A DNA stretch of 64,000 nt from Cryomorphaceae bacterium 1068. Lineage in GTDB: Bacteria; Bacteroidota; Bacteroidia; Flavobacteriales_D; Cryomorphaceae. The stretch is taken from assembly GCA_027214385.1 (NCBI GenBank), contig JAPVXR010000003.1, forward strand, positions 62,001 through 126,000, read 5' to 3'. The notes beneath the pieces were generated by a model. The model ran no database searches and had not been told where the DNA came from. It saw nothing but the letters and a program-made list of their open reading frames with translations. Below are positions 26,088 to 33,839 of this stretch, in pieces (within the stretch, counting starts at the first letter, position 1; the number at the start of each line of letters is the position of its first letter). Both the position numbers and the translations under genes were made by a program.

Positions 26088-26972
26088 TTGTTGTCTGTTC
26101 TAGTTGCTGTTGTTTTTGGTAGTTTTTTTGTTTGGCTCTTATTTCGTTCGAAAGAGGTAAAGAGTGGCTTGGACGTTCCCGAAGTATTTCCACTCGAATG
26201 GCGCACCTATTTGCTTACCGAGGTCAACTTTTATGCTGCGCTTAGTAAAACCGATAAGGCCGTTTTCGAAAAAGACGTTTTGAACTTTTTAAAACGCGTA
26301 CGGATTACCGGAGTGCAAACTACGGTAGACGATCAAGATCGTTTGCTCGTAGCGTCTAGTGCAGTAATCCCCGTATTTGCCTTCCCTGAATGGGAGTATA
26401 GTACTTTGCATGAGGTGCTTCTATATCCTGATTTGTTTGATGCCTCCTTCAATCTGGATTCAAAGAAACGCAGTATCAGCGGTATGGTAGGTAGTGGGGG
26501 AGTCATGAATCGGGTAGTAATTTTTTCTAAGCCAGCGCTGCATAATGGATTCGATAATATCACGGATAAGCATAATGTCGGAATACATGAGTTTGTGCAT
26601 CTTTTCGATAAAGAAGATGGTCAAATAGATGGCATTCCTAAAGTATATATGGATAATCAGGCTCTCTTGCCTTGGGTAAAACTGATACACGAAAATATGG
26701 CTGAGATGCTGAGAGGGAATAGTGATATAAATCCCTATGGTGCGACTAATAGCCAGGAATTTCTGGCGGTGACTTCAGAGTATTTTTTTCAGCGTCCTCG
26801 ATTATTAAAGGAGAAACATCCTGAGCTATATGAGGTATTGAGTAAAATTTTCAATACAGATTTGGCAGAGACATTAGATGGTGATATGCCGCTGAGAACA
26901 ATAGGTCGAAATGATAAATGTCCATGCGGAAGCGGAAAGAAATTTAAGGACTGCTGCATGCTGCATTCCTAG
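26088..26972 (+). CDS. MtfA-like zinc peptidase with N-terminal membrane helix and C-terminal SEC-C motif
   Basis: 294 residues. N-terminal hydrophobic helix (3-19), then an M90/MtfA-type peptidase domain with zinc motif HEFVH (167-171), Glu/Asp-rich loop and LHEVLLYPDLF. The last 17 residues (about 276-292) form a SEC-C zinc finger, CPCGSGKKFKDCC, which in SecA and other proteins binds zinc. The start is TTG at 26088: an in-frame TGA lies two codons upstream and no ATG precedes the membrane helix. In E. coli, MtfA titrates the Mlc repressor; here the target is unknown and the SEC-C tail is an uncommon addition. Confidence 0.85.
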   Translation: MLSVLVAVVFGSFFVWLLFRSKEVKSGLDVPEVFPLEWRTYLLTEVNFYAALSKTDKAVFEKDVLNFLKRVRITGVQTTVDDQDRLLVASSAVIPVFAFPEWEYSTLHEVLLYPDLFDASFNLDSKKRSISGMVGSGGVMNRVVIFSKPALHNGFDNITDKHNVGIHEFVHLFDKEDGQIDGIPKVYMDNQALLPWVKLIHENMAEMLRGNSDINPYGATNSQEFLAVTSEYFFQRPRLLKEKHPELYEVLSKIFNTDLAETLDGDMPLRTIGRNDKCPCGSGKKFKDCCMLHS

Positions 26973-27015: not shown

Positions 27016-28119
27016 CTAGTTGTTCGTTTCAAGGCTGGGAAGATTGATTTCAAACTCGGTGCCTACATTGACTTTAGACCTGACAGAAACGTTTCCTTGA
27101 ATTTTATCGATTGCCTGTCTGACCAGATATAATCCCAAGCCGCTACTTTCTACAGTTGTTGCAGCACCCTCTGAGAAGAATATCTCAAAGATCTTTTTCA
27201 ATTGTTCAGGCGGTATGCCTTTCCCTTCGTCTCCAACAATTATTTTGTAGCCTCCTCCTGTGTTTTCAACACTCACACAGATCTGATAAGGTGTATTTTT
27301 TTCTCTAAAACCGTACTTGACAGCGTTCGTGATAAGATTATTCAGGGCTATTTTCAACCGAACCCGATCTGTGAAAATGACGGTTTCTAGATCAACATTC
27401 ACCTTAAAACTAACATCACTATTGTAATTCATCAATGGCTCGATAATCTCATTTACAAGCTGATTTAAATTAACGTGTTCAAGGATCAGATTGGTCTTTA
27501 GATTCCGATAGTATTGCAGAGTAGTTTGGATGTAATCATCCATTTTTCGAATACTACTGTTCATGAGTTCAAAATACTCTTGAATCTGATCCGGATCTTT
27601 TTCATCACGACTAAGGTCAACCAGTCCCAGCAACGAGAGTAGGGGAGCACGTAAATCGTGAGAAACGCTGTAAACAAAGCGATTCAGTTCAGAATTTACT
27701 CTAAATAACTCTTCATTTTTTCGCTTTAGCTCGACCTTGGTTTTGTATGACTCATAAACAGTGTCAAGCGTTTTCTCCATCATATCACGATCCCAAGGCT
27801 TAACCAGGTACCTGTCAATATGGCCCTTATTTACGGCATCTATTACGGTTTGAGAACTCGTGTAGGCTGTTAAAAGTATTCTTTGTGGATCGGGGTGTGA
27901 TTTGCACACCATTTGAAAAAATTCTACCCCGCTTACTTTAGGCATGCGCTGATCCGCAATGATGATATGCGGTTCTTCTTCTTCAATTAATGCCAATGCT
28001 TTTTCTGCAGAATTGGCCGTTCTGATGGAATGCGTTCTTCTGAAAGTGGCTTTAAAGGCACTCAAGTTGGGTTCCTCATCATCGAGGTAAAGAATGCTTA
28101 TTTTCTCGTTTTCGGACAT
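27016..28119 (-). CDS. Receiver-histidine kinase hybrid
   Basis: 367 residues in an unusual order, receiver first: REC domain 1-125 with phosphoacceptor Asp56 (IIADQRMP) and Lys107 in the VKPWD segment; a coiled linker; HisKA with His154 (SVSHDLRAP); HATPase about 255-362 (NLITNAVKYG, GDEGKGIP, GLGLYLV). Cytoplasmic, no membrane helices. Its ATG overlaps the stop of the upstream kinase gene (TAATG), so it is translationally coupled. Its REC domain closely resembles the stand-alone receiver encoded divergently at 33354. Probably a phosphorelay partner of the 7TMR-DISM kinase. Confidence 0.92.
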   Translation of the reverse strand: MSENEKISILYLDDEEPNLSAFKATFRRTHSIRTANSAEKALALIEEEEPHIIIADQRMPKVSGVEFFQMVCKSHPDPQRILLTAYTSSQTVIDAVNKGHIDRYLVKPWDRDMMEKTLDTVYESYKTKVELKRKNEELFRVNSELNRFVYSVSHDLRAPLLSLLGLVDLSRDEKDPDQIQEYFELMNSSIRKMDDYIQTTLQYYRNLKTNLILEHVNLNQLVNEIIEPLMNYNSDVSFKVNVDLETVIFTDRVRLKIALNNLITNAVKYGFREKNTPYQICVSVENTGGGYKIIVGDEGKGIPPEQLKKIFEIFFSEGAATTVESSGLGLYLVRQAIDKIQGNVSVRSKVNVGTEFEINLPSLETNN

Positions 28120-30287
28120 TATAGTTCAAGTTCGGACTTTATTCTAGCCTTAATGGGAAATTTAAGAATAAATTTTGTGCCTTTTCCAGGTTCAGTTTCT
28201 ACGTTAATCTTGCCATGGTGGGTTTCAATAATCTTGAAGACAATACTCAAACCCAATCCGGTTCCCTGACCCACATCTTTTGTGGTGAAGAATGGTTCGA
28301 ATATGCGGCTCTTCGTACCTTCATCCATTCCCTCACCCGTATCACTGATTTCTATTGTTGCGTATTCATCATCAGCACTTGTTCTGATCGTGAGAACAGA
28401 AGGTCTTTCAGGTGGGTTTTCTTCCATTGCCTGAAGACCGTTATTTACGATATTTAGAAAAACTTGATTGACTTTTCCGCCCATACACTCTACAAGGGGT
28501 AAGTGTTCTGCCAAGTCTATATTTACTTCAACTGTAGCGGGAATTGAGCTTTTTAGGATACTCAAAGTCGATTGAATACCTTCATTAAGATTAGATTCTT
28601 TGACGTTGGATTCGTCAATTCGACTAAAGTTCTTAAGTCCTTTTACGATTTCAGCCGTTCGTTTGGCACCTTCTTCGATTCCCTTGAGAAGTTCATCAAC
28701 CTCCTGCCTGCTGTAAGTCAGATCTATTTCTTGTTTGAATTTTTCAATGGATTGCTTCTTTTCTTGAAAAGAAGTGGAGTCATTAATGGAATCATACATA
28801 TCCAGAACGTCCAAGATATCTTTCACGTCGTAGCGCAATGGCTGAATGTTGGCACTTACAAAATTGATCGGATTATTGATTTCATGGGCTACGCCCGCAG
28901 TAAGCTGACCTAGTGAGGCCATCTTCTCAGCCTGTACTAGTTGTGATTGAGTTTCTTTGAGTTCAGAAATGGCGGTATTCAGTTTGGAGTTTGTATTTTC
29001 CAAGTCTGCCGTTCGCTCGCTTACCTTTTCTTCTAAGACGATGTTCTGCTCTTTCACTATTCTCTCATTCTCGAGAGAAACGCGCAGAGCCTGCTCTTGT
29101 GACTCACTTTTTTCTTTCTTGAGAATATTGATACGGTCAGCAAGAGCGATCGATAGCAATACAGCTTCTACGGCACTTCCAAAAAGCATCATATAATTGG
29201 TTACCGGATTAGAAGGGATAACTCCCGAGTCTTGCAAAGCATAAACGATAATTCCCGCTACCAGAACGCTCCATGCTAAGATGAAGAATTTTGCCGGAGA
29301 ATATCCCTTTCGGTAGACGATTATACCGGCAGCCAAAATGTAAAAGGAAAGAACAGTAATGCCCACCTGAGTGGCCATATGGACAAATGGACTTGCGCCG
29401 AAAAGAGCCGCAATGAATACCAAAGTAAAATACCCATAAATAAACTGTGCGAAACGATTTACCCTCCGTGCATATACTTTGGTTCTCAAAAAGTCTTGAA
29501 GAAAGATAACGGAGGTAATGCTTACAAGGGCAGTAAATAAATAGGGGCTTCTGGAAGCAAGCCAAGCATTATCGGGCCACAAGAATTGCTGCATGTATCC
29601 TTCCAGCACAGCTTGGGTAGACCCGACTGCAATGATGTACAGTACATAAATCAGGTAACTCCTGTCACGTACAGTAAGGAATATAAAGAAGTTGTAGAAT
29701 GCCATCACCAAAATAAGTCCGAAGTATGCACCAAAGAGCAAGTTGGAAATGAGGAGCAGCTTTTCAGAAGCTGCAATAGTTGTTACATAAATTGGCAATA
29801 CGATTTGCTCGGCGGTGGTAACCCTGATCAGAATGGTTAGAACATCACCCTGAGGAATAGTAAGGTCAAGGATAAACGGTGGAGCACTGTATTTTCTGTG
29901 GTCAAAGTTTAAGCTTTCACCAAAGAGCTTTTCACAGATGATCTCTCCCTTTTCATCTAGCACGAAGATTTTTACAGTATCGAGTAGAGGTTGATGGATT
30001 TGAATCCTGTAGTGCTGATTTTCGGCGAGATTTTGAACGGATGTTTTAACCCATAAAGCGCCTGTATTAAAGCCAAGATTTGGCCTTGGCGCTTTCAAAT
30101 CCTCAAAGTCTTGACTTAGAACATCATCAATAGTAGAGGAGAAGATCGTTTCTCTGAGGACGGATAGTTCTCTGCCCAAGACCCTTTTTTCGAAATCAGG
30201 GGTAAGTTTTAGCGTGTCTCCTGCCTGAAGGCCATCAGCACTCAGCAGAAGGGATAAGCCAAAGAGAAAAACACCTATTCTACCCAT
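28119..30287 (-). CDS. 7TMR-DISM sensor histidine kinase
   Basis: 722 residues: signal peptide (1-22), periplasmic 7TMR-DISMED2-type domain (about 30-165; FNTGALWVKTSV), seven membrane helices (about 178-388), a coiled coil (390-455), HisKA with His468 (GVAHEINNPINF), and a HATPase domain (about 590-710; NIVNNGLQAM, SDTGEGMD, GTGLGLSI). The DISMED2 fold is a jelly-roll thought to bind carbohydrate or other small ligands. It overlaps the acyltransferase gene by 13 bases upstream and couples to the REC-kinase gene downstream, so ligand and enzyme are encoded side by side. Confidence 0.93.
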   Translation of the reverse strand: MGRIGVFLFGLSLLLSADGLQAGDTLKLTPDFEKRVLGRELSVLRETIFSSTIDDVLSQDFEDLKAPRPNLGFNTGALWVKTSVQNLAENQHYRIQIHQPLLDTVKIFVLDEKGEIICEKLFGESLNFDHRKYSAPPFILDLTIPQGDVLTILIRVTTAEQIVLPIYVTTIAASEKLLLISNLLFGAYFGLILVMAFYNFFIFLTVRDRSYLIYVLYIIAVGSTQAVLEGYMQQFLWPDNAWLASRSPYLFTALVSITSVIFLQDFLRTKVYARRVNRFAQFIYGYFTLVFIAALFGASPFVHMATQVGITVLSFYILAAGIIVYRKGYSPAKFFILAWSVLVAGIIVYALQDSGVIPSNPVTNYMMLFGSAVEAVLLSIALADRINILKKEKSESQEQALRVSLENERIVKEQNIVLEEKVSERTADLENTNSKLNTAISELKETQSQLVQAEKMASLGQLTAGVAHEINNPINFVSANIQPLRYDVKDILDVLDMYDSINDSTSFQEKKQSIEKFKQEIDLTYSRQEVDELLKGIEEGAKRTAEIVKGLKNFSRIDESNVKESNLNEGIQSTLSILKSSIPATVEVNIDLAEHLPLVECMGGKVNQVFLNIVNNGLQAMEENPPERPSVLTIRTSADDEYATIEISDTGEGMDEGTKSRIFEPFFTTKDVGQGTGLGLSIVFKIIETHHGKINVETEPGKGTKFILKFPIKARIKSELEL

Positions 30288-30991
30288 TCCAATTGTCCTA
30301 CCGATTTGAGTTGAAGATCATGACTGTATAGAATCTTTTTATCATTACCAACATCCTCCATTAGTTCAATTTCAGGATTTGCCCTGAGTTTTAGAATCTT
30401 GTCGTAGTAAATTTGAGAAACGTCCTTCAAGGATTGTGGGTCTGCAGAAAGAACCCTCGCAACATAGTTACTATTGGGATAAATAAACTCTCCCTTATTT
30501 CCTAAACCTGTTTCAACTCTGAAACCCAGTCTCATGGCAATTTTTAACGTGTATTGAGCACAAATGGTGAAAATGGATGTGATGGGTAATTGATTGCAAA
30601 TGGCCATACCTGCTACTGCCAAATTCATGGTTACACCTGTATTTGGTGCCATTGACCTGCTATTCCATAAACCGCACAACTCTGAGGTGCCTCCGCTAAC
30701 GGCGTAATGCCTTACCATTTCATTAATATTTGGGTCAAAGTGATCAACTGCTTCTTGGACGGGTAGATCTGTCCTTCCATCAGCTACCTGTACGCGAATT
30801 CCACCCAGAAGTTCGCCTGACTCCTTATCAATCGCTTCTACCACATAGACATGAGGATTATAGGCCCAATCGTAATTGTTGGTGGTAATATTACCCAAGT
30901 TGAAGCCTTCAAGAACCTTACGATGTCCCATGGCATAGGTCAAACAGCTCTCCTCTTCGTCAATGGCTCGGTAAGCACGCAGATGAATCAT
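30275..30991 (-). CDS. GNAT-fold acyltransferase-like protein (LuxI/FeeM-like layout)
   Basis: A 238-residue soluble protein with a GNAT-like order of elements. Residues Arg24, Phe30, Trp42 and the strand HVYVVEAIDKESGELLGGIR (47-66) ending in Arg66 recall the spacing in LuxI-type autoinducer synthases, and ELCGLWNSRSM (104-114) parallels their conserved Glu-Leu-x-Arg region; FeeM-type N-acyl amino acid synthases share this layout. This is motif-level resemblance only. It overlaps both neighbours (4 bases with the E1/nitroreductase gene, 13 with the kinase), so it belongs to the four-gene operon and may make a signal sensed by the kinase. Confidence 0.55.
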   Translation of the reverse strand: MIHLRAYRAIDEEESCLTYAMGHRKVLEGFNLGNITTNNYDWAYNPHVYVVEAIDKESGELLGGIRVQVADGRTDLPVQEAVDHFDPNINEMVRHYAVSGGTSELCGLWNSRSMAPNTGVTMNLAVAGMAICNQLPITSIFTICAQYTLKIAMRLGFRVETGLGNKGEFIYPNSNYVARVLSADPQSLKDVSQIYYDKILKLRANPEIELMEDVGNDKKILYSHDLQLKSVGQLEWVE

Positions 30992-33273
30992 TTATTCTTT
31001 TTAAAGTGCAGACTCAATTCACGCCTAAGGCTCTTGACCACGTCTTTTTGTTTGTAAAACAATCTGAAAATAAAGATAGGCTCCTCCTCTGTGTAAACTG
31101 GCATAATTTCTTGAAGTTCTTTAGCAATGGTTGTGAACTCGTGAAACTGATCAGAACTGAGGTCGCTACCGTCTTCTAATCGAGGAAGTAAGAGTGAGAG
31201 TGGAGATTGCGGCTGAAAGCCCATATTCAAGGCATTTGCAGCAATCCAAGCCCTTTCCATATCCATACCTGCTTGGAGGTAATCTAACCTCGAACGTTTA
31301 GGCCTGGTAATGATACCCAAAGCTGCCGCAGCTGAAGTGGACTTTCTAGAAAGCTTTTCAAATGCCGAACCACCTTTCCATTCTACAAGCTTATCGATCA
31401 CTTCTCGGTTTCTGGCGAGCTTAAACCCCGTCAGCTCCCCGATTGTCAAATCAACTGTGGCAATATCGATCCCATCTTTGGTTGATTCTACTTCTTCCTT
31501 CGTCCATCGCATCTCTTCGGTAAAATTGCGGTGCCCCGTCGGATGCATTATTCTGAATCGTTCAGTTCGTGCTATTAATGCAGCCAGTCGATCAAACTCC
31601 TCACCAGGTTCGACTATGATTAGGTTTGATCCGTTCTTTTGGCTAGCTGTTTTTAATTTCTTTATGTCGCTTTGGGATAGCGGGATGCTCTGCTCTAAAT
31701 TGCGATTGGTTTCTCTGTTCAATACATTTTCACCCAGCCATTTATCAAGTTCACTTGACGTTTTGCTTTCGGTTAAGCAAAGGTGTGCGACAATGTCTTT
31801 TTCATCTTGATTTGGGAAGAATGAAACTGAATTTTCATAGCCTTGATTTATTCCTTCCAGACATGCATTTTCCAATGATGCACCCAAGGCAATCATCGAA
31901 GCAATCTCATGATGATCGAGGAATGAACTAGTGAGATTTCTGTCAAATTTCAGTTGAAATACCTCATTCTTATTTGTCCATTTCCAAGGCTGCAGATTTC
32001 CTCCTGAAGGCGCGTGACAAGCCGTTTTAACTATTCGTTCTACTACTTGATCATCAAGTGATATTTTCCCTTCGTGCTTCAACTCAGGACCAAAGTCTTC
32101 GTCTGGTTTTGGCAATTTGATTTTGGACTCTTCCTTGGTTCCAGCATGCCTATCTCCGATAATCTCTTCTACATCCATGTAGTACCTTCCCGATTCATGG
32201 TATTTATCCAGAAAGATTCTTCTGACTACATCGGCGGTTATTCCACCACCCAGGGTCACCGCTGAAGCCAATTGCGGCCACGTCGAGATCGTCTCACCGA
32301 TTTCAAGCATCGATGCTTTGGCTCGGGTCGAGATGGTATCAGCACCTACGATGGCAAGCATATAGGGTATCTTGTCTTCATTTGTTTCTAAGGTCTTGAG
32401 TTTCTCCGGACTCAAGTCTTCGACCATACCATGGAGTAGAGGACGGTCAGGTTCAAGGTCGAATCGCTCAACATCCACCATTCCTCGATCGCTAGCCTCC
32501 ATCACTACGGGAATCTTCATCTCCCGAGCTTTCCATCTGGAGATGATTTTCATGTCCAAACCATCGCATTCATCAATCAAGAGGTCCAAGTCTCCTCCTT
32601 GGTGAAAGAACTCCTCGATATTGTTTTCAGTGAGGCCATCCGTAAAACACTTGATATTTAAGAAAGGGTCTATTTCTAGAATCTCTCTGGCTACTGATAT
32701 GACTTTGGAAACTCCAAGGTTGTGCACACCTGTCCTGATACGGTTTAGATTGGTAAGTTCTAAAGAGTCAAAATCTGCTAATCGCAACTCTCCGAAACTC
32801 CGCTCCATGGCCATTGTAACTGCTACGGATTGACCTACAGACAAACCGATAAGTCCTACTTTTTTCTTTGCCAAAACCTTCTCTTCCGCAGGACTTATTT
32901 TATAGTGATTTCTATTTGTTCGTACTTCAATGAATTCCTTTTCGGGGAGCAAGTGCACCAATCGATTTGACCAAGGGAAGTAAGTCCACAATCCATAGCT
33001 GGTAATGTCGGTACCTCCAAGGTGCGTTAAAATGGCGCTTTCAATTTCTGATGGTGTTAATTTTTTCTTCGGGTGTCGAGCCTTAATGAGCTCAGCCAAT
33101 TGACTTTGGATATCATCGGTAACCGCTGGCGACTTGCTATTAATTAAATGGGTCAACTCATCTTGCTCTGATACGAATTCCAATCGATAGAAAATTGGCA
33201 TCCACGTAGTGACGTCGCTATGTTTTGCAGTGGCTAGAGTATCTTTCAGGAGTTTTTCCCGTATCATTATCAA
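30988..33273 (-). CDS. ThiF/E1-like plus nitroreductase fusion protein (Rv1355c/MoeY type)
   Basis: 761 residues: an N-terminal region (1-125), a ThiF/MoeB-type adenylating domain (about 135-360) with Gly-rich nucleotide loop GLSVGQS (143-149), Asp-rich DFDSLELTNLNR and DECDGLDMK (Cys236), then an FMN-type nitroreductase domain (about 405-735) beginning with ACHAPSGGNLQPW. This fusion corresponds to the Rv1355c family (MoeY in mycobacterial annotation), of unproven function. No CxxC zinc pair of MoeB/ThiF is evident. First gene of the operon; ATG at 33267 is an alternative start. Likely activates an acyl group or peptide C-terminus and reduces a product, by inference. Confidence 0.88.
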   Translation of the reverse strand: MIMIREKLLKDTLATAKHSDVTTWMPIFYRLEFVSEQDELTHLINSKSPAVTDDIQSQLAELIKARHPKKKLTPSEIESAILTHLGGTDITSYGLWTYFPWSNRLVHLLPEKEFIEVRTNRNHYKISPAEEKVLAKKKVGLIGLSVGQSVAVTMAMERSFGELRLADFDSLELTNLNRIRTGVHNLGVSKVISVAREILEIDPFLNIKCFTDGLTENNIEEFFHQGGDLDLLIDECDGLDMKIISRWKAREMKIPVVMEASDRGMVDVERFDLEPDRPLLHGMVEDLSPEKLKTLETNEDKIPYMLAIVGADTISTRAKASMLEIGETISTWPQLASAVTLGGGITADVVRRIFLDKYHESGRYYMDVEEIIGDRHAGTKEESKIKLPKPDEDFGPELKHEGKISLDDQVVERIVKTACHAPSGGNLQPWKWTNKNEVFQLKFDRNLTSSFLDHHEIASMIALGASLENACLEGINQGYENSVSFFPNQDEKDIVAHLCLTESKTSSELDKWLGENVLNRETNRNLEQSIPLSQSDIKKLKTASQKNGSNLIIVEPGEEFDRLAALIARTERFRIMHPTGHRNFTEEMRWTKEEVESTKDGIDIATVDLTIGELTGFKLARNREVIDKLVEWKGGSAFEKLSRKSTSAAAALGIITRPKRSRLDYLQAGMDMERAWIAANALNMGFQPQSPLSLLLPRLEDGSDLSSDQFHEFTTIAKELQEIMPVYTEEEPIFIFRLFYKQKDVVKSLRRELSLHFKKNK

Positions 33274-33353
33274 AATTTATTTCCAAAGTCTAAACTAGAA
33301 AGAAATATAGGAAAGCTTCTATTTTTTCGACAAAACCCCTTATTTACGCTATC

Positions 33354-33839
33354 ATGGACGAAAATGAAGAGAAGAATATTATAAAAAAACCCGGTGTGCT
33401 GTATATTGATGACGAAGAGCACAACCTGATATCCTTTAAAGCTTCTTTGAGGCGAGAGTTCAGTGTTTACACGGCAATTAGTCCTGAAGCAGCTCTAGAA
33501 TATCTGGATAAGGAAGACTTGAAAGTTGTGGTTTCTGACCAAAGAATGCCCAAAATAACGGGTGTTGAATTTTTCGCAGAATTGAAGAAAACACACCCTG
33601 AACCCATTCGAATTCTCCTAACTGGATATAGCGATATGCAGGCAGTAGTAGATGCCATTAATCAAGGTGAGGTGTATCGTTACCTTACCAAGCCTTGGGA
33701 TGCTCCAGGCATGGTGTCAACCATCAATCAAGCCATCGAAATTTATGACTTGAGAAAGGAAAATAAAAGATTAGTGGCAGAATTGAAAAGGGTAAACAGC
33801 CAGTTGGAATTCTACTTAAGACAGAAGTTATTGAGTTAA
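33354..33839 (+). CDS. Stand-alone response regulator receiver protein
   Basis: 161 residues: REC domain with YIDDEEHN, phosphoacceptor Asp62 (VSDQRMPK), Thr in LLTGYSD and Lys in LTKPWD, followed by a 35-residue coiled-coil tail and no DNA-binding domain. It is divergent from the signalling operon, with only 80 bases between starts, and its receiver matches the N-terminal receiver of the hybrid at 27016-28119 along its whole length. Probably the soluble output or phosphate sink of the same system. Confidence 0.92.
   Translation: MDENEEKNIIKKPGVLYIDDEEHNLISFKASLRREFSVYTAISPEAALEYLDKEDLKVVVSDQRMPKITGVEFFAELKKTHPEPIRILLTGYSDMQAVVDAINQGEVYRYLTKPWDAPGMVSTINQAIEIYDLRKENKRLVAELKRVNSQLEFYLRQKLLS

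Follow-up and report, generated by a model that had tools for sequence, protein, structure and literature searches.

Organisation of the operon

The window analysed here is a 64,000-nucleotide stretch of Cryomorphaceae bacterium 1068 (contig JAPVXR010000003.1, positions 62,001 to 126,000), and the subject of this report is an operon in it that joins two biosynthetic genes to two kinase genes. All four genes lie on the minus strand. The first encodes a TrzS-like ThiF (E1)/nitroreductase fusion of the Rv1355c family (30988..33273, 761 aa), and the second a 238-aa acyltransferase, identified by its model and PDB matches, with the fold of N-acyl amino acid and acyl-homoserine lactone (AHL) synthases (30275..30991). 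They are followed by a 722-aa 7TMR-DISM sensor histidine kinase with a periplasmic DISMED2 domain (28119..30287) and a 367-aa REC-HisKA-HATPase kinase, a relay component recognised by its Pfam domains (27016..28119). A single-domain receiver of 161 aa is encoded divergently on the plus strand (33354..33839; PF00072, 69 bits).

The fusion gene and the 238-aa gene overlap in an ATGA at 30988-30991, the 238-aa gene and the seven-transmembrane (7TM) kinase gene share 13 bases (from 30275), and the two kinase genes meet in a TAATG at 28119. The four minus-strand genes are hence one overlapping unit. The receiver gene starts 80 bases from the listed start of the fusion, or 86 bases if the fusion starts at the in-frame ATG at 33267. 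These five open reading frames, their overlaps and the distance to the receiver had been described in an initial annotation made from the sequence alone, and all were found as described.

The promoters of the two transcripts presumably lie in the divergent intergenic region (33274..33353); promoter-like matches in it were not above chance. Terminator-like sites within the operon were also at chance level (7 vs 5.6 ± 2.3 expected).

The 238-residue synthase

Sequence searches of Pfam, NCBIfam and PDB gave no identification of the 238-aa protein, and neither PF00765 (Autoind_synth) nor PF21926 (FeeM) matched it up to an E-value of 0.1. Autoind_synth found no match in the genome itself, and control genomes gave none either. 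The AlphaFold2 model, based on 16 homologues, was confident, with a predicted local distance difference test score (pLDDT) of 91.1 and a predicted template modelling score (pTM) of 0.89. When it was compared with PDB by Foldseek, the top ranks were taken by the AHL synthases BjaI, RpaI, EsaI and MesI and by the N-acyl amino acid synthase FeeM. The VIA-align Z was 16.0 for FeeM (173 residues, 2.8 Å), 15.2 for LasI and 14.9 for BjaI. Other GNAT proteins came close after (Z ≤14.8), with N-terminal acetyltransferases among the lower matches. As these scores are so close, the modelled fold is called GNAT and kinship was judged by covered length; by this measure, the nearest functional kin of the model are the acyl-amino-acid and AHL synthases. 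The GNAT-like, LuxI/FeeM-related nature that the initial annotation had read from residue spacing was thus borne out by the model.

Five residues (W42, G64, W109, Y171 and P172) were invariant across 80 synthase sequences, and R66 and E104 were conserved in at least 97%. The expected activity, judged from the model, is that of an N-acyltransferase using acyl-coenzyme A or acyl-acyl carrier protein (ACP). The putative TrzA encoded next to actinobacterial Rv1355c in Rhodococcus and Nocardia appeared as a remote relative (hhalign E 3.5e-5, probability 72; 14–20 bits vs ≤2.2 for shuffles). Elsewhere, acyltransferase and ThiF domains are physically joined: Nitratidesulfovibrio has a FeeM-ThiF-nitroreductase protein, one Streptomyces has a GNAT-ThiF fusion (the GNAT match being weak, E 0.004) and another has an overlapping ThiF/GNAT gene pair. 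At one surveyed locus (L075, genome G718), the synthase gene was present in two tandem copies within one module.

The ThiF/nitroreductase fusion and probable oxazolone chemistry

The fusion protein matched NF005901, the Rv1355c family, over residues 17–754 with 783.1 bits (curated cut-off, 476 bits), in agreement with its first annotation as an Rv1355c-type fusion. All 66 E1 domains in the alignment share the adenylation residues G143, S145, R178, K190 and D237, the last of which corresponds to the aspartate of ThiF (by offset, D217 of TrzS). In the flavin site, A421, P422, N426, Q428 and W430 (A-P-x3-N-x-Q-x-W) were at least 97% conserved among 45 fusions. The equivalence of the arginines R572/R574 to TrzS R540 is uncertain.

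Rv1355c is TrzS, a cyclase/desaturase that converts N-acyl-tryptophan to N-acyl tryptazolones. TrzA (Rv1356c) first N-acylates tryptophan, after which the ThiF domain of TrzS uses ATP for the cyclisation and its flavin domain uses oxygen for the desaturation (PMC12856293). In the operon, the gene with the LuxI/FeeM fold and predicted acyltransferase activity adjoins the fusion gene with a four-base overlap. The product is probably an N-acyl amino acid that is closed into an oxazolone ring, as far as family membership and gene context can tell. The amino acid and the acyl chain used here are not readable from the sequence.

The two enzymes might instead act on a macromolecule or peptide, by conjugation or N-terminal acylation, and not on a free small molecule. 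Such activities are known from members of both the ThiF/E1 and the GNAT superfamily, and the N-terminal acetyltransferases among the lower structural matches would agree with them. However, this ThiF clade is the Rv1355c family, for which small-molecule chemistry has been shown, and the acyltransferase fold is nearest to FeeM/LuxI. Moreover, the neighbourhoods yielded no recognisable gene for a ubiquitin-like protein or a precursor peptide, although short open reading frames in them were not systematically searched. We consider a macromolecular substrate improbable.

Two Streptomyces plasmids (L041:4188-6056 and L152:4923-6721) carry the same ThiF subfamily, with 45–47% identity to the window protein. 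There, it is fused to or overlaps a GNAT protein, and a ketoacyl-ACP synthase III gene stands after the fusion. In actinobacteria, a trzAS-like pair adjoins GGDEF or GGDEF-EAL genes (L148:2066-6838 in Nocardia farcinica; L040 and L149 in Rhodococcus), and the neighbours of trzAS in M. tuberculosis are cyclic di-GMP genes (PMC12856293). Two phyla hence tie oxazolone-type chemistry to different signalling genes.

Sensor kinase, relay and output

The 7TM kinase contains PF07696 (75 bits), PF07695 (183 bits), HisKA and HATPase (86 bits) domains. The Pfam domains agree with the initial annotation of a 7TMR-DISM kinase with a periplasmic ligand domain, followed by a kinase that begins with REC. The sensor half was modelled with a pLDDT of 82 and matched the periplasmic domain of RetS with a Z of 15.5. 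Its seven helices matched a G-protein-coupled receptor-like arrangement, although such a match is weak evidence when helical bundles are compared. The Foldseek list contained RetS, carbohydrate-binding folds lower down, and TMEM87A and Wntless, two 7TM proteins whose ligands are lipids or lipidated molecules; for the ligand of the kinase, the latter two are suggestive only.

The REC domain of the second kinase and the divergent receiver were 50% identical (65 of 130 positions): they are related, and the description of their sequences as nearly the same did not hold. The relay had also been called complete. Sensor, REC-kinase and receiver are present, but no DNA-binding output domain was found in the window. 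In two relatives, a REC-GerE transcription factor gene accompanies the kinase genes, convergent in L085 and directly downstream in L105. No autoinducer-binding LuxR was found in this genome (the control was positive), which argues that no LuxI-LuxR pair is hidden elsewhere in it.

Other genes were seen beside the kinases and the module. Just upstream of the module in L025 (4419-7696) are genes for a REC-PglZ protein with a PorX-like architecture and for a protein like alanine dehydrogenase; similar genes occur in L026, L027 and L031 of the same family. Also in one family, a gene of ~900 codons stands directly downstream of the kinase genes (L076, L081, L087, L098, L100, L102 and L106), with AsmA/DUF748-like matches in two of three copies tested and none in the third.

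Conservation of the neighbourhood in Bacteroidota

The synthase was searched for as a single sequence in a phylum sample of 395 genomes and as a profile in a class sample of 395 genomes; the kinase was searched for in nearly the same phylum set (390 genomes). Hits were found in 13 and 76 genomes, respectively, for the synthase. A total of 80 loci was tallied by a six-frame hidden Markov model search of the fetched surroundings, 77 from these samples and three others.

In 78 of the 80 loci, the synthase had the same kinase lineage as its same-strand neighbour. The exceptions were L113, where the contig ends 354 bases from mid-gene, and L133, a remote relative (70 bits). A REC homologue was near 70 loci, and a REC-kinase homologue of more than 300 aa was present in 65. 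The initial annotation would have been contradicted if Rv1355c-family genes of relatives rarely sat with the kinase genes. This was not the case, and every genome of the phylum sample with an NF005901 match also had a homologue of the 238-aa protein. The module was spread over about 25 family codes. Its internal gene order varied, with the synthase before or after ThiF and the receiver at either end, meaning that the synthase-kinase association was kept through rearrangement. Synthase and kinase are the invariant core of the module.

The link also holds from the side of the kinase. Scores were at least 468 bits in the 13 synthase genomes and at most 279 elsewhere. When the class sample was searched with the sensor half, 72 of the 73 best-scoring matches lay at synthase loci; below these, paralogues were mixed with the two weakest module kinases. 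The full kinase profile gave at most 587 bits for control paralogues vs at least 758 for complete module kinases, and no synthase, ThiF or methyltransferase of the module kinds was found at the control paralogue loci fetched. The kinase lineage is thus near-exclusively linked to the synthase.

The same gene set in 80 other loci means that the arrangement in the window is not due to chance. That the genes are mere neighbours without a functional link is refuted by this survey (78 of 80 loci in about 25 family codes, with varied gene order), and we give this explanation practically no weight.

An exchangeable second enzyme

The slot for the second enzyme held a ThiF-nitroreductase fusion in 44 of the 80 loci, ThiF alone in 22, a class I S-adenosylmethionine (SAM) methyltransferase in seven and an isoprenylcysteine-type (ICMT/PEMT-type) methyltransferase in two. 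Five loci had no recognised second enzyme: four were near a contig end and one (L109) was a true absence. The ThiF-less loci were also considered as losses, and this was rejected: slot proteins of 213 aa were ICMT-type and those of ~255 aa were class I methyltransferases, and several apparent losses were contig ends. The enzyme class changed at least six times on the synthase tree and four times on the kinase tree, while the kinase stayed. These families are unrelated, yet each could act on a free carboxylate, by adenylation and ring closure or by forming a methyl ester. Capped in this way, an N-acyl amino acid would lose its charge and, as a neutral molecule, cross membranes more readily.

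The kinase could also sense something else, such as envelope stress, an antibiotic, a glycan or the lysis of neighbours, as proposed for RetS-type sensors. The relay would then switch on production of the N-acyl oxazolone, which would be an effector (a redox or membrane lipid, or an antimicrobial) and not a signal. The RetS match of DISMED2 and the carbohydrate-binding folds point in this direction, and sub-inhibitory antibiotics induce oxazolone production in proteobacteria (PMC12856293). A stress-sensing kinase with an effector lipid predicts the same gene neighbourhood, and a dedicated regulator would leave the same kinase-synthase pattern. However, it is the synthase that the kinase lineage accompanies, and no single tailoring enzyme; this pattern agrees better with a receptor for the chemistry that the products share. 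On balance, we regard an effector with a stress-sensing kinase as rather unlikely, although it is the strongest competitor.

Flanking gene

A convergent gene at 26088-26972 of the window, ending 43 bases from the 3' end of the operon, encodes an M90 (MtfA-like) peptidase that carries a SEC-C motif at its C-terminus.

Proposed signalling circuit

It is somewhat probable, in our view, that the operon is a make-and-sense signalling circuit of the autoinducer type, in which the synthase has a LuxI fold and the products are oxazolones or methylated molecules. The make-and-sense layout put forward in the initial annotation is supported. The biosynthesis part is well supported; we infer that the kinase senses the product. 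Substrate, product, export, the identity of the ligand and the direction of signalling are likewise what we infer.

In a first step, suggested by fold and pathway, the LuxI/FeeM-fold enzyme would acylate an amino acid at its amino group. The ThiF domain would then adenylate the free carboxylate and close the oxazolone, and the nitroreductase domain would desaturate it, as TrzS family membership and the conserved active sites suggest; in some relatives, the methyltransferase in the slot presumably caps the same carboxylate as an ester. The neutral, lipophilic product may exit the cell or enter the membrane and bind the DISMED2/7TM part of the co-encoded kinase. Phosphate may then pass from this kinase to the REC-kinase and the divergent receiver, whose domains are present; in some relatives, the REC-GerE transcription factor follows directly. 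Together, these steps would form a circuit that senses its own product in the manner of CqsA/CqsS or RpfF/RpfC, run with LuxI-type synthase chemistry.

Several points weigh against this circuit. Mycobacterial oxazolones are mostly retained in the cell and readily hydrolysed (PMC12856293), and the operon contains no exporter gene. The kinase could report another stimulus that regulates production. The sequence link between the 238-aa protein and TrzA is remote. The nitroreductase was absent from 22 loci, one or two of which may be cut by contig ends, and L109 is complete for synthase, kinase, REC-kinase and receiver with no recognised second enzyme. Finally, the mirror-tree partial rho of synthase vs sensor domain was 0.27–0.30, and that of the receiver control 0.15–0.25. 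Correlated evolution is thus present but weak, little above a control gene, and it was not used as proof of ligand matching.

Relation to known systems

In CqsA/CqsS, LqsA/LqsS and RpfF/RpfC, a signal synthase is encoded with a membrane histidine kinase. The operon shares this co-encoded pair, possibly for a lipophilic small molecule. The synthase families are unrelated and the sensor domains differ (for the RpfC kinase, see PMC5391125), and the ligand here is a proposed one. With TrzAS (Rv1356c-Rv1355c), TyzACB and OxzAB, the operon has in common an N-acyltransferase adjoining a ThiF cyclase and a flavin-dependent oxidase, with conserved adenylation residues; cyclase and oxidase are fused as in TrzS and OxzB. 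However, no histidine kinase is described for these systems (the text of PMC12856293 mentions none), whereas the unit here includes a 7TM kinase relay, and its synthase bears only a remote resemblance to the putative TrzA. The fold is shared with LuxI/FeeM synthases (BjaI, LasI, EsaI, FeeM) over most of the chain, but the 238-aa protein is below Pfam detection and the genome is without an autoinducer-binding LuxR. The kinase resembles RetS/LadS in its DISMED2 periplasmic domain, 7TM bundle and kinase, but it lacks a C-terminal receiver and is linked to a biosynthetic pair.

Each part belongs to a known kind, and so does the synthase and membrane-kinase circuit as such. The literature searched, with subscription journals and preprints mostly outside its coverage, contained no description of a histidine kinase together with an oxazolone or FeeM-type synthase. 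Nor did it describe this combination of parts, its breadth or the swapping of tailoring enzymes, which are new relative to it.

Biological meaning

The evidence is evenly poised on the broader proposal of a widespread Bacteroidota autoinducer system, in which a LuxI-fold N-acyl amino acid synthase is combined with exchangeable carboxylate-capping enzymes to give signals that differ between lineages and are detected by a dedicated DISMED2 kinase with seven helices. Oxazolones have been likened to acyl-homoserine lactones, and their physiological role was called a major unresolved question by the authors of the TrzAS study (PMC12856293). The conserved, dedicated sensor kinase makes the hypothesis of oxazolone signalling directly testable in non-pathogenic species of Bacteroidota. 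If the broader proposal is true, oxazolones would gain a signalling role. For a phylum with few described circuits of this sort, the operon also indicates a signal synthase of the LuxI fold. Many 7TMR-DISM sensors have no ligand assigned to them, and for this sensor type the operon suggests a class of candidates. The exchange of one tailoring enzyme suggests that lineages may use chemical dialects.

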